This document shows, piece by piece, positions 4,853 through 11,254 of a DNA stretch of 47,854 nt. A model generated the notes under the pieces. It searched no databases, was not told the origin of the DNA, and was given only the letters and a program-made list of their open reading frames with translations. Made by a program: the position numbers and the translations under genes. Source of the DNA: Synechococcus sp. SP2 MAG (lineage in GTDB: Bacteria > Cyanobacteriota > Cyanobacteriia > PCC-6307 > Cyanobiaceae); the NCBI GenBank assembly GCA_030756895.1, contig JAVBIX010000071.1, positions 1-47,854 of the forward strand. Reading direction: 5' to 3'. Every line of letters starts with the position of its first letter. Within the stretch, counting starts at the first letter, position 1.

Positions 4853-4928
4853 TCCATCGTGATCGTTTTGGTGCCAAAGGGGAGCATGCCCACTTTTACG
4901 CTAAAGATTGGACAACTGTTCTAGAGGT

Positions 4929-6197
4929 ATGGAAGCAAACCGCGTTTGTGCTCCGATCAGAAGGAACAGGTGCAGCATCGCTCTCGTGCTGAGCACATCG
5001 TTACTCGGGGGCTGCGCCATCACCGATAGCCAAGGATCGATCGTATTGAAGGTGGCTCAAGCCAGCAATGAAAACGAACAACACTCCTCTCATCGTTTTG
5101 AAGCAGAACGGAAGATCACCAGAGATTTTCAACATCAATTAATTCAAAAGCAGCCTGGGATCAAGCTGCATCCCTCGATCTATCCCGAAGAGTCTTTGGA
5201 GAGGGAGCTCAAAGTTCAAACCAATAGCGGCCTAGGACCAGACCTCGTGATTGCAGACAGCAATCAAGCCTTGAGCCTTCTTGCCTTGGGTCTGACCGAG
5301 CCGATCAAGTTGACGAAAGAACGTCAAAACTTGATTAATCCAGCAGCCCTAGAGCGCGTTAAAACAGCCACTGGATCTTTAGCGGGGCAACCGGTCTCGC
5401 AGTTTCTACAACTGGCTTGCTTCGATAAACGCAAACTCAAAAAAGCACCCACAACCTTGTCGGAACTGTCCGCAGACAGTGGCAAGGGCAAGATTTTTGG
5501 GATGGTCACCAACCTCCAGGATCTGTACTGGAGCCTTGGGAGCTTCGGGGCGGGCGAAGCACTAACTGCCTCGTTAGCAGGCAAAAAAGCCACTGAGGCG
5601 GCCCATGAACGGCTCACTCTTTGGATGCGTTGGCTCAAGGCATCCAGCTATCAGCAAAATATTGTGTTTTTGAGAAATCAAGCCGCCCTTCGAAAGGCAT
5701 TCATCCAAGGCGAAATGAGTTGGATCAGCTGTTGGAGTTCCCAGCTACCGCAACTTCGTAAAGAGCTCAAAGATCATCTCGGCATTGCCCCATTACCCAG
5801 TGGAAACTTTGGACGAGCAACACCAATCACTCGCTTGCAGGTCTGGGCTCTTGGCAAGAACTCAAGCAAACGTCAACGAGCAGAAAGCCTGAAATTGCTC
5901 AATTTCATGGTGCAACCCTGGGCTCAGAAAACCTACGCCCTCAAATACCAGACGGGCTTTCCTGTCAATCCGGCGGCGGCACTGATCGTCAGCAAACAAT
6001 TACCTGCAGGATTCTCTAAATTCAGTGAAGACGAAAACAAGCGCGTAAGCCGTGGTGATGCAATTGTCTCAGCAATTAATGCCAAGCCAAGATTAAGAAA
6101 AGATATTCAATCCACACTCAACAAGTTAATTTTTGATGGATTATCTCCTGAGAAGGCGGCTACTGAACTCCAAAATCAGATGAAAGCGAATCGATGA
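4929..6197 (+). CDS. Extracellular solute-binding lipoprotein (family 1-like)
   Basis: A predicted exported lipoprotein with a basic start, a hydrophobic stretch (IALVLSTSLLGG) and the lipobox LLGGC, so the acylated Cys is about residue 29. The mature part resembles family 1 ABC solute-binding proteins (sugar or polyol type). It has a GPDLVIADSNQALSLLALG segment near the N-lobe, an acceptance loop around GEMSWISCWSS, and a C-terminal region with KLLNFMVQPWAQK. An ATG at 4908 is an alternative start. No ABC permease or ATPase of the sugar type lies nearby. Its stop overlaps the start of an MscS channel gene (ATGA), so the two are probably made together. The ligand is unknown. Confidence 0.8.
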   Translation: MEANRVCAPIRRNRCSIALVLSTSLLGGCAITDSQGSIVLKVAQASNENEQHSSHRFEAERKITRDFQHQLIQKQPGIKLHPSIYPEESLERELKVQTNSGLGPDLVIADSNQALSLLALGLTEPIKLTKERQNLINPAALERVKTATGSLAGQPVSQFLQLACFDKRKLKKAPTTLSELSADSGKGKIFGMVTNLQDLYWSLGSFGAGEALTASLAGKKATEAAHERLTLWMRWLKASSYQQNIVFLRNQAALRKAFIQGEMSWISCWSSQLPQLRKELKDHLGIAPLPSGNFGRATPITRLQVWALGKNSSKRQRAESLKLLNFMVQPWAQKTYALKYQTGFPVNPAAALIVSKQLPAGFSKFSEDENKRVSRGDAIVSAINAKPRLRKDIQSTLNKLIFDGLSPEKAATELQNQMKANR

Positions 6198-7564
6198 CTC
6201 TATCTATGCCTTACCTCATCACTATTAACCCAGGGGCAATTCTCAACGAGCTCCTGAGCTGGTTGTCATATCTGAACCGGGGCACCGTTCTCCTCCAACT
6301 CTTTTTAGTTGGCATTGTGATGGTGGCAGAGCAACGGGGTGCGCTTCGACGGCGCATGGAGCTCAGGCTAGTTCCTGAATACATCCGAGTTCTGATTGGC
6401 CCCCTACTTCTCTTAATCAGTTCAGGGCTTTTCCTTCTAGTGGGCTTGCCATGGGGATTGCTGCGCTATTTCGGACTGCTCTGGCTGGGCTGGATGTCAT
6501 TCACACCACTGAAAATACTACTTCTAAGTATCAACAAAAAATTCCCAGTTGATGAATTAGAAAGCACATTTTTAAGACCCGTCTACTTCATTGTGGCCAC
6601 CATGTCCTTCATAAGACTGATGGGAAGTACGGAAAACTTGGCGCAAACTCCAATCGCTAATTTATTTGGAGTTGAGCTAACGCTAGGAAGAATTTATCTT
6701 GCAATCATAGCCATCTATGTCATTATGACCCTCTCCTCAAGGCCTGCAACATTTCTCGCATGGCTTAGTGGAGTGCTGTTTGGTGTCCGTCCCAAAAACA
6801 GGCGAGGAATGGAGCTTCTGTTCCGTTACAGCGTGATCATCATTGGCATCATTGGGGTGGCTTACTTCATCGGCATCGATGGCACAGCATTCATTGCCAT
6901 AGCAGGTGGATTGTCTGTCGGAATAGGCTTTGGTATAAAAGAAATCATCTCAAATTTCATCAGCGGCATCTGGCTCCTGTTTGAAGGGTCAGTGCGCCCC
7001 GGAGAGATTTTGATGGTCAACGGCGACCCCTGCACCGTACGCAAACTGGGGTTAAGGGCAACACAATTACGTCGGGGACGCGATGGAGCTGAGCTGTTAA
7101 TCCCGAATCAGATCTTCTTCACACAAGAAGCCACATCCTTCACCGCAACAGAAACATCCAGACGTGACAGTGTGGTGGTTGGCGCAGCCTATGAGCACGA
7201 CCCAGATATTATCGTTGAGTTATTAATAACAATTGCCAAAGAGCACAAAAAAGTTCTAGAATATCCCCCAGTCAAAGCCTTTGTCATCGACTTTGCAGAG
7301 TCTTCTATAAACTATAAGGTTCTCTTTTGGGTAGCCAACCCCCTCGATTCCTTTGAAATTGGCAGTGATATTCGCCGAACAATCTGGAAACAATTTGAAC
7401 AAAAAGGAATCACCATTCCGTTCCCGCAACGTCAGATCTATCCAATGGAATGGCCACCAAGTCTTCAACAAAGCATGCATTCAGCTGGAGGCGGAGGTGT
7501 AGTGACGCAAGGCATAGAACCAGAACTGACGGGCAGCGACGAAAAAGCCAACGGCGAGGCCTAA
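6194..7564 (+). CDS. MscS-family mechanosensitive ion channel
   Basis: A 456-aa membrane protein predicted to open under membrane tension and release solutes during osmotic downshock. Several N-terminal helices precede the pore-lining helix region (about residues 225-265, with TAFIAIAGGLSVGIGFGIKE), followed by the MscS beta domain (NFISGIWLLFEGSVRPGEI, then LLIPNQIFF). A cytoplasmic alpha/beta domain ends in IPFPQRQIYP. The start codon overlaps the stop of the upstream lipoprotein gene (ATGA). The Gly-rich C-terminal tail overlaps the 3' end of the convergent exporter gene by 84 bp. With six or so helices it is longer than E. coli MscS. Confidence 0.92.
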   Translation: MTLSMPYLITINPGAILNELLSWLSYLNRGTVLLQLFLVGIVMVAEQRGALRRRMELRLVPEYIRVLIGPLLLLISSGLFLLVGLPWGLLRYFGLLWLGWMSFTPLKILLLSINKKFPVDELESTFLRPVYFIVATMSFIRLMGSTENLAQTPIANLFGVELTLGRIYLAIIAIYVIMTLSSRPATFLAWLSGVLFGVRPKNRRGMELLFRYSVIIIGIIGVAYFIGIDGTAFIAIAGGLSVGIGFGIKEIISNFISGIWLLFEGSVRPGEILMVNGDPCTVRKLGLRATQLRRGRDGAELLIPNQIFFTQEATSFTATETSRRDSVVVGAAYEHDPDIIVELLITIAKEHKKVLEYPPVKAFVIDFAESSINYKVLFWVANPLDSFEIGSDIRRTIWKQFEQKGITIPFPQRQIYPMEWPPSLQQSMHSAGGGGVVTQGIEPELTGSDEKANGEA

Positions 7565-9067: not shown

Positions 9068-10041
9068 TACACCTTTCCCTGCCGAAACAGCTCACCGATC
9101 AGCTGATCAATCGGAGGATCATTCACTTCCAGATCCCGCACCTCAAAGCGGTCAAGCAGTTGTGCCACCACAGCCGTGAGCTCATCAGGCTGGACTCGCA
9201 AGTTCACCTCGCAGTCGCAGCAGCTGTCGAGCCGGCCAAGGCCAGCAAACGCCTCAGCCCCCACTGGTGCAGCAAGTTCCAAACGAACATGGCGCTCAGG
9301 GGCGAGCCGACTTGCCAAGCGATCAAGCGGACCGTCATGGAACAAATTCCCCTGATGAATCAACAACACGCGCGGACATAGGGCAGTGATATCGGCCATG
9401 TAATGGCTCGTGAGCAGCACAGTGGCACCAGTTCTTTGGTTGTAATCCGCCAAAAACTTGCGCACCCGGGCCTGCGCATTCACATCCAAACCAAGCGTGG
9501 GCTCATCAAGGAACAACACATCAGGTTGGTGCAGCAAGGCAGCGAGTAACTCAGCTTTCATGCGCTGGCCCAACGACAACTTGCGAACAGGGCGCGTGAG
9601 CTCCTCACCCAACTCCAATAAATCCGACAGCTCGGAGATACGGCGCTTGGCATCCCGATCACTAATGCCATACACAGCAGCATTCACCCTCAAGGAATCC
9701 ATCGGGGGGAGATCCCAAAGCAATTGCTGCTTCTGGCCCATCACCAGAGTGATCCGACGCAAAAAATCGGGATGACGCTTTTGCGGTTGATGACCTGCAA
9801 CGACCACCTGACCTGCACTGGGATAGATCAACCCACACAACATCTTCAAGGTGGTGGTTTTCCCGGCGCCATTGGCACCAAGAAATCCCACCATCTCTCC
9901 CCGAGCGATCGTAAAAGAAACATTGCTCACCGCACACACATCACGGTGGCGCCGGCGCATGAAGTGCTGCAAGGTTCCACCCAAACCCGGTTGCTTGTCG
10001 GCAACCCGGTAAATCTTGCTGAGACTTTCAACCTCAATCAC
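9067..10041 (-). CDS. ABC exporter ATP-binding subunit
   Basis: The ATPase that powers the two ABC-2 permeases encoded just downstream. From the proposed GTG start at 10041 it has 324 aa and begins IEVESLSKIYRV. Walker A is GANGAGKT (about residues 55-62), the ABC signature LSLGQRMKAEL, Walker B VLFLDEPTLGLD, and the switch His follows in LLTSHYMAD. A C-terminal regulatory extension of about 90 residues contains a Cys-rich stretch (LDSCCDCEVNL). The frame is open back to an ATG at 10137, which would crowd the divergent mscS-like gene; hence the shorter start, with moderate certainty. Confidence 0.88.
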   Translation of the reverse strand: MIEVESLSKIYRVADKQPGLGGTLQHFMRRRHRDVCAVSNVSFTIARGEMVGFLGANGAGKTTTLKMLCGLIYPSAGQVVVAGHQPQKRHPDFLRRITLVMGQKQQLLWDLPPMDSLRVNAAVYGISDRDAKRRISELSDLLELGEELTRPVRKLSLGQRMKAELLAALLHQPDVLFLDEPTLGLDVNAQARVRKFLADYNQRTGATVLLTSHYMADITALCPRVLLIHQGNLFHDGPLDRLASRLAPERHVRLELAAPVGAEAFAGLGRLDSCCDCEVNLRVQPDELTAVVAQLLDRFEVRDLEVNDPPIDQLIGELFRQGKV

Positions 10042-10180
10042 AACAGAACCATCAGCAACTCGTGGGTATAGCGAACGCGATGGCACACCACCAAGTGAAA
10101 GTTTAAAAGCTGAAGCATTCAGCCTGATCCAATGCAAAGGAGGAGGCAGACTGCATGCAGCAGGTCACGGTGATGACGCA

Positions 10181-11254
10181 ATGAAAGAAAGGATCATTCA
10201 AGACGTGGATGTGATTCACTCCAATACCGGAGTATTGATTGGCACTGTTGTTCTTGTACTGCTCTGGCTTGTCCTTGGGCTAATGGAGCGGAGAGGACAA
10301 CATCTTGGAGGGATGATCGCTAGAGCAATCCGCAAGCCATTGCTTCTAGGGCTCAGCGCCTCTCTGTACTTGGGCTGGCTCGGACGAGAAATCGCCAGCA
10401 ACGTGGAGTGGCTGCATGGCAGCAATGCTTTAAAGCTCTCCGCCACAATCACAATCCTCGCCGTCATGTGGGCGCTGAGCCAATTGGGCCACACCGTCAT
10501 GAAGACCAGACGTTTTGAAAGATGGCTCCAGATGGACGACCAGAAAGATGTGTCGATGGCCATCAGTTTTCTGGGCAGGATTTACACGATCTTGATTCTG
10601 GTGATTGGCGCTGGCGCATTGATGATCACCTTCGGCGTTCCCGCCACTGCCCTCGCCGCTCTAGGAGGAGGCGCTGGAGTCGGCCTCGCCTTCGGAACGC
10701 AAAACATCTCCCAAAACTTCTTCTCCGGTTTCATGCTGTTCTTCAACCGTCCCTTTAAGGAGGGGGACTGGATCAGTACGGACGGAATGGAAGGAACCGT
10801 TGAAAATATCGGCTGGTATCACACACGCCTACGCACCTTTGACCGCCGACCGATGTATATCCCCAACGCAGTTTTTGCCACCAATAGCATCATCAATCCT
10901 GGGCAGATGTATAACCGAAGAATCCTGGCAAATATTGGTTTGCGCTATGAAGATATACCTGCCATGGATACTATTACCAAGCAAGTTCGCGAACTTTTAA
11001 AAAGCCACAACGCCATTGACAACGGTCAAATAATTCTCGTGCATTTCAATGCATGGGAAAGCTCATCACTCAACCTTCAGATTTACTGTTTCACTAAAAC
11101 CACAAACTGGCAGGATTACTTAGATATTCAGCAGGAGGTATTTCTGGAGATTGCGAAAATCGTGAAATCTAATAATGCCGACTTTGCTTTCGACTGCACC
11201 ACCCTTTATCCAGCGCCAAATTTAAAACCAGCACAGCTCTTCCCATCGGCATGA
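10181..11254 (+). CDS. MscS-family mechanosensitive ion channel (second copy)
   Basis: A 357-aa MscS-type channel starting at the ATG at 10181. Four N-terminal hydrophobic segments lead to the Gly/Ala-rich pore helix TALAALGGGAGVGLAFGTQN (about residues 160-180). The canonical beta-domain start (ISQNFFSGFMLFFNRPFKEGD) and MYIPNAVFATNSIINPGQMYNR follow. It is closer to the standard MscS pattern than the copy at 6194 and is not its duplicate: the pore helix and tail differ clearly. It is divergent from the ABC exporter operon. The frame is open upstream to about 10016, but that part reads into the exporter gene and has no good start. Confidence 0.92.
   Translation: MKERIIQDVDVIHSNTGVLIGTVVLVLLWLVLGLMERRGQHLGGMIARAIRKPLLLGLSASLYLGWLGREIASNVEWLHGSNALKLSATITILAVMWALSQLGHTVMKTRRFERWLQMDDQKDVSMAISFLGRIYTILILVIGAGALMITFGVPATALAALGGGAGVGLAFGTQNISQNFFSGFMLFFNRPFKEGDWISTDGMEGTVENIGWYHTRLRTFDRRPMYIPNAVFATNSIINPGQMYNRRILANIGLRYEDIPAMDTITKQVRELLKSHNAIDNGQIILVHFNAWESSSLNLQIYCFTKTTNWQDYLDIQQEVFLEIAKIVKSNNADFAFDCTTLYPAPNLKPAQLFPSA

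Follow-up and report, generated by a model that had tools for sequence, protein, structure and literature searches.

A gene for a MalE-type solute-binding lipoprotein (SBP) that is directly followed by a gene for an MscS-family channel protein is a conserved cyanobacterial gene pair, and it is far more general than the single window in which it was noticed ("the window" being the whole 47,854 nt stretch of Synechococcus sp. SP2 MAG DNA that was analysed). Since the neighbourhood and the overlap of the two genes are conserved, the pairing is more than chance. The sequence data suggest that the SBP senses an outside solute for the MscS channel rather than feeding a pump. Tentatively, with slightly less than even weight, we consider the two proteins to be one module, in which a dedicated extracytoplasmic ligand sensor would modulate its own channel.

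The gene pair in the window

The window corresponds to contig C69 of the source genome (2.22 Mb, 88 contigs). The SBP ORF extends from an ATG at 4929 to a TGA at 6195-6197, with an in-frame TTG upstream at 4908, and the MscS ORF extends from an ATG at 6194 to a TAA at 7562-7564 (Table 1). A stop-start overlap had been reported in the preliminary description of this DNA, and the junction indeed reads ATGA. The term "translationally fused" that was used there has to be withdrawn: the genes encode two separate proteins, no examined ORF matches both the SBP and the MscS models, and profile models revealed no SBP-MscS fusion among the 187 SBP and 186 MscS ORF matches in the fetched loci. Neither protein was matched by defence-system models.

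Table 1. Features of the SBP-MscS gene pair (positions refer to the window)
Feature	Position	Strand	Basis
MalE-type (SBP_bac_8) solute-binding lipoprotein (SBP), 422 aa	4929..6197	+	ORF, Pfam, AlphaFold model
Codon of lipobox-type Cys29	5013..5015	+	Cys invariant in alignments A2 and A3
ATGA stop-start overlap	6194..6197	+	Sequence
MscS-family channel gene, 456 aa	6194..7564	+	Pfam; PDB by sequence; hydrophobic segments

Closest to the pair lie a gene of VTT/DedA type and a set of ABC-2 type genes. The MscS gene and an opposite-strand ABC-2 type gene overlap tail-to-tail by 84 bases (7481-7564), and in loci L020-L023, too, the ABC-2 gene ends inside the MscS gene. A second MscS-family gene is found on the same island (10016-11254), where it is not preceded by an SBP gene.

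The SBP is assigned by Pfam to SBP_bac_8 (2.7e-22, 80.3 bits, cut-off 27) and to SBP_bac_1 (28.1 bits, cut-off 26), and a MalE-like NCBIfam match is below its cut-off. From residue 37 through to its C-terminus, the AlphaFold model (pLDDT 81.2, pTM 0.79) fits binding proteins of maltodextrin type, with Thermotoga maritima MalE3 as top PDB match (VIA; Z 33.3, rmsd 4.0 over 357 residues). No ligand was indicated by the fold-match lists. The full SBP fold and many conserved residues are retained. According to a heuristic analysis of 117 SBPs, 110 have a lipobox-like Cys, four have a hydrophobic N-terminal segment without Cys, and three are unclear. Lipid anchoring was dropped as a trait peculiar to the paired SBP because another SBP from the same genome (L167) also looks lipoprotein-like when inspected by eye.

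The channel protein matches PF21082 (54 bits, cut-off 21) and PF00924 (40.5 bits, cut-off 20.2), while PF21088 scores just below its cut-off (21.4 versus 23.1). With the MscS beta-domain and the C-terminal domain above the Pfam cut-off, the protein belongs to the MscS superfamily by sequence, and opening by membrane tension is predicted. An MscK-like NCBIfam match is under the cut-off, and the closest solved channel by sequence is MscK (PDB 7uw5, 1.2e-40). Several hydrophobic segments, the first of which begins near residue 24, precede the MscK/MscS-like core. The large periplasmic N-terminal domain of MscK type is absent from the channel protein, which has 456 aa in total. Confidence in its structure model is low (pLDDT 65.5, pTM 0.38); a Foldseek search with this model had MscK structures 7ux1 and 7uw5 on top (423 and 434 columns), at TM-scores of at most 0.29.

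Conservation of the pairing in the order and beyond

For the order to which the window belongs, 299 genomes were surveyed, and in a first pass a pair was called when an MscS match was located at most 500 nt downstream of an SBP match on the same strand. SBP matches occur in 118 and MscS matches in 279 of these genomes, the latter number including other MscS classes. Among the 150 SBP matches listed, 133 were paired with MscS in the first pass, and among the best 150 MscS matches, 132 were paired with SBP; some of the 150 listed places are pieces of broken genes. The unpaired matches were re-read, for the SBP matches with profile HMMs. MscS proved to be directly downstream in 16 of the 17 remaining SBP matches (L085, L094-L097, L207-L217), the exception (L193) ending at a contig edge. 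A more divergent SBP is encoded directly upstream of 17 of the 18 remaining MscS matches (L079, L091, L093, L098, L194-L206), and here the exception (L192) starts at a contig edge. Counted by genome, a pair was read in 115 of the 118 that have SBP matches; in G101 contig ends separate the two genes, and G058 and G203 were outside the reading. An SBP match is lacking from 181 of the 299 genomes, including two from the window's own genus (G004, G121), and the module is therefore dispensable in many lineages.

An HMM search across 386 genomes of the phylum yielded 22 class-level SBP matches in 21 genomes and three more distant ones. All 21 strong SBP matches outside the order (E 6.6e-25 or better; 16 loci read first and five added later) precede an MscS gene of the window class. 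All four weak matches outside the order (E 1.3e-6 to 1.4e-4) are unpaired, and three of them are located beside ordinary ABC permeases. The contrast between strong, paired and weak, unpaired matches is a useful internal control.

A scan of genome contigs retrieved 21 loci, all but one titled Synechococcus or Prochlorococcus. The SBP gene is immediately upstream of the MscS gene in 18 of the 21 (being broken in L154); at L159 the tail of the SBP gene alone is present at the contig start, and at L162 the first base of the contig is already inside the MscS gene; the third exception, L164, is described below. One of the loci (L147) is from the complete genome of Synechococcus WH7803 (record CT971583.1), with the pair at L147:4760-7341. 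Two MAG contigs, titled Rhodopirellula (L158) and Prochlorococcus (L165), carry Synechococcus-like pairs and are probably mis-binned.

These surveys clearly rule out that the adjacency is limited to one strain, the outcome that would have spoken against the preliminary description; the pairing is widespread in the order and beyond.

Geometry of the junction

The junction was analysed in 117 pairs after removal of repeats, 101 from the order (including contig-scan loci) and 16 from outside. Left out were SBP matches covering less than 250 model positions (including the broken genes of L092 and L154), MscS matches below 150 bits, repeats in which a 200-residue stretch of MscS was identical, and the five outside-order loci added later. 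Start codons were picked by position, and choosing the nearest start biases the following counts toward small distances. Within the order, an (A/G)TGA overlap is found in 78 of 101 pairs (74 ATG, 4 GTG); the others show a 1-base overlap (8), an 8-base overlap (1) or a gap of 2-24 nt (12), and the junction is unassignable in two pairs with one broken gene (L024, L217). The SBP stop codon is TGA in 96 of the 101. The 16 outside-order junctions consist of 12 gaps of 1-18 nt, three 20-base overlaps and one gap of 138 nt. The stop-start overlap is thus conserved in the window's order.

Genomic setting, duplication and decay

Gene order and strand of the pair are kept across several cyanobacterial families, with flanks that vary by lineage. 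In Synechococcus the flanks comprise ligA, DUF389, VTT and ABC-2 type genes, and valS. Elsewhere, the pair is accompanied by genes for an NADH-dehydrogenase-type membrane subunit and a flavoprotein (L129), by a DUF1400 hydrolase gene (L138), or has a ResB-like gene on one side and a gene for a TPP enzyme on the other (L131, L132). The latter setting may resemble a ccs1-ilvG neighbourhood of Synechocystis.

Several genomes carry more than one pair, with three each in L079 and L080 and two in L081 and L086. The SBP and MscS trees are correlated (r 0.93 over 95 pairs), and the nearest neighbour is identical in 64 of the 95. True partners score better than swapped ones in all four genomes with two retained pairs, with a small margin in L081 (0.910 versus 0.895) and with two of the other three genomes representing one genus. 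The SBP and MscS genes have duplicated and diverged as a pair. The congruence of the trees indicates co-duplication rather than binding, because operon-linked genes are congruent even without contact between their products.

In a few cases one partner is broken beside an intact-looking one. The SBP gene is in three pieces in G035 (L092), in two overlapping pieces in G094 (L024), and broken in the MAG locus L154, each time with an intact MscS ORF. At L217, the MscS gene is in two pieces next to an intact-looking SBP gene. Dependence of one protein on the other may therefore not be absolute, unless these cases reflect assembly errors or recent decay. A different situation is found beside valS in Synechococcus sp. 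AG-679-B05 (L164:5568-6526), where an N-terminal SBP remnant is followed by an N-terminally truncated MscS gene. The remnant is similar to residues 1-47 of related SBPs alone (tblastn E 1e-4 to 9e-4), and the MscS sequence resumes at residue 175, a few bases past it. A single deletion appears to have run through both genes.

It might be argued that the pair is just an old two-gene operon which is inherited as such, by selfish-operon effects and without a shared function. Linked genes do travel together in horizontal transfer, and the broken partners just described would fit. Against this, every testable strong match had its partner, and two or three diverged copies have stayed paired within one genome. 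We consider operon inheritance alone to be highly improbable.

Importer genes near the pair and elsewhere

A CUT1-class permease is expected as the partner of a MalE-type SBP. Importer genes were sought with a permease model built from 14 permease segments of the source genome. This model had no match anywhere in the window. The earlier claim that no ABC permease is nearby thus stands for the window itself; it does not extend to WH7803 and G260, where a permease and an ATPase adjoin the pair. Sources with an SBP match numbered 172 (a redundant set with unequal flank lengths that includes the window), and five of them (L147, L028, L216, L083, L133) were matched by the permease model, L028 through fragments. 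Among the loci examined, none had an identified CUT1 permease next to the pair.

In WH7803 (L147:1627-4763), the SBP gene is preceded by genes for an NtrB/SsuC-like permease (609 aa) and an AAA_assoc_C ATPase (575 aa). The stop codon of the ATPase gene overlaps the SBP start by four bases (ATGA-type), so that permease, ATPase, SBP and MscS genes form one run. At the same place in G097 (L028) the ABC genes are reduced to fragments, with SBP and MscS intact, and in G260 (L216) a duplicated NtrB/SsuC-like permease and an ATPase are encoded after MscS. At L133, a dehydrogenase gene separates a weaker permease-model match from the SBP gene, and the permease near the pair at L083/L233 (the same place) has its own NMT1-type SBP. 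The combination of an AAA_assoc_C ATPase with a duplicated permease of NtrB/SsuC-like type is found, intact or in fragments, at L147, L028, L219 and L228. In G190, the NtrB/SsuC-like ABC pair is located between ligA and valS, which are landmark genes also around the window pair.

These loci bear on the possibility that the SBP works in trans as receptor for an ABC importer, which might be the one formed by the NtrB/SsuC-like permease and the AAA_assoc_C ATPase, with MscS as an operon passenger. The four-gene run of WH7803 and the ABC genes behind MscS in G260 argue for it, as does the observation that the ABC pair may lack a linked SBP: none of six ORFs which flank it at four loci (L219, L220, L222, L224) codes for one. 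However, the ATPase is found at E 1e-111 or better in only 14 of the 299 genomes, compared to 118 with an SBP match, NtrB/SsuC-like permeases are not of the CUT1 class, matches to the permease model are as rare as given above, and in G097 it is the ABC genes that decayed. We regard this possibility as improbable. An ABC importer is not the general partner of the SBP, and an importer may be linked to the pair in two lineages. As the preliminary description had implied, the SBP gene goes with the MscS gene and not with a linked importer, the pairing being conserved in the order and outside.

In the source genome, a single CUT1 sugar-type ABC system is complete and has an SBP of its own (on C30), and parts of another are scattered; a cognate sugar permease elsewhere in the genome, the second outcome that would have spoken against the preliminary description, may thus exist. 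The complete system is called Ggt-like here; its NCBIfam matches are below cut-off. The idea that the paired SBP is a recent paralogue of the Ggt-like SBP was rejected because their pairwise similarity is not significant (E 0.045).

A second way to connect the pair with an importer does without contact between the two proteins. The MscS channel would vent osmolytes on downshock and the SBP would catch the leak for a separate sugar ABC transporter, with the gene overlap ensuring co-expression. In line with this, all 118 genomes that have SBP matches also have at least one CUT1-type permease match according to a hand comparison of tables, and the modelled fold and the conserved residues suggest that ligand binding has been kept. 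Release of compatible solutes through Msc channels has been proposed for Synechococcus (PMC9948718). On the other hand, the Ggt-like system of the source genome already has an SBP, and mere co-regulation need not have preserved the neighbourhood through changed settings in several families. Furthermore, 34 of the 118 genomes match the Ggt-like permease weakly (1.8e-20 to 4.9e-29) and never strongly (the tally was sorted by hand from a table and includes G203, where the pair was not read); weaker CUT1 matches are nevertheless present in all 34. The Ggt-like system is therefore unlikely to be the general partner. Overall, we judge release and recapture to be unlikely.

A possible sensory module and its relation to known systems

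We return to the reading of SBP and MscS as one module. The membrane-tethered MalE-type SBP would sense a solute in the periplasm, probably a sugar-type osmolyte, and would alter either the tension threshold of the MscS-family channel that belongs to it or the time for which this channel stays open. In favour of this reading are the conserved pairing in differing genomic settings, the stop-start overlap, the duplication as a pair, the joint loss at L164 and the kinship of the channel with MscK; the broken partners, the importer genes beside the pair in WH7803 and G260 and the many genomes of the order that lack an SBP match speak against it. We infer protein-protein contact, ligand-dependent gating, and a sugar-like osmolyte as putative ligand; the fixed stoichiometry proposed in the preliminary description may likewise apply. 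In its simplest form, the SBP would be the detachable sensory part of the channel. A more specific version, which we consider possible and more doubtful than the module as such, is that the SBP docks on the outer face of MscS and that its load of sugar or osmolyte sets the opening tension, so that venting would depend on whether the outside solute is lacking or present. This gating idea is plausible.

The channel that is closest to the window protein by sequence among those solved, E. coli MscK (KefA), is described as requiring both membrane tension and external K+, and its chain includes roughly 500 aa of periplasmic domain (PMC9653487). The window channel differs in that it is devoid of such a domain and has a separate SBP gene adjoining. 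The SBPs of MalE/CUT1-type ABC importers are similar to the window SBP with respect to SBP_bac_8/SBP_bac_1 assignment, fold and lipoprotein-type signal; the gene partner of the window SBP, however, is a channel. In GluR0-type glutamate receptors, an SBP-like module controls a K+ channel pore within a single chain. If the SBP controls the channel, the window pair would be comparable, except that it consists of two genes and has an MscS pore. GluR0 structures are tabulated in PMC8786288. Loaded SBPs are also described to act on chemoreceptors, kinases and diguanylate cyclases (PMC9602780), which parallels the proposal made here for the window pair, namely a separate SBP acting on a membrane protein. 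The word "channel" does not occur in the main text of that article on SBP-stimulated receptors.

Picocyanobacteria have been reported to have 24 types of MscS, the presence of which differs among freshwater, brackish and marine strains (PMC9361551), and several SBP clusters of unknown function as well as orphan urtA genes are listed in PMC8786288. We found no description of SBP-MscS pairing in the open-licence literature searched (supplementary tables not covered), and it is not described in the accessible portions of PMC9948718, PMC7522525, PMC9361551, PMC7771541, PMC7434838, PMC8670252, PMC9653487, PMC9602780, PMC8786288, and PMC4005912.

Were the gating proposal correct, the SBP would be a gating subunit of a channel, a role distinct from uptake by ABC, TRAP and TTT systems and from that in signalling receptors. 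For the most part, the tension-gated channels of bacteria are regarded as simple safety valves. A channel class equipped with an extracellular binding protein of its own would tie venting to the chemistry outside the cell, in abundant photosynthesisers of the ocean whose released organic solutes feed other microbes. Unassigned picocyanobacterial binding proteins would gain a candidate partner other than an importer. The proposed module is testable in a cultured strain, WH7803. In this strain and in several of its relatives, a further MscS gene immediately follows the pair.
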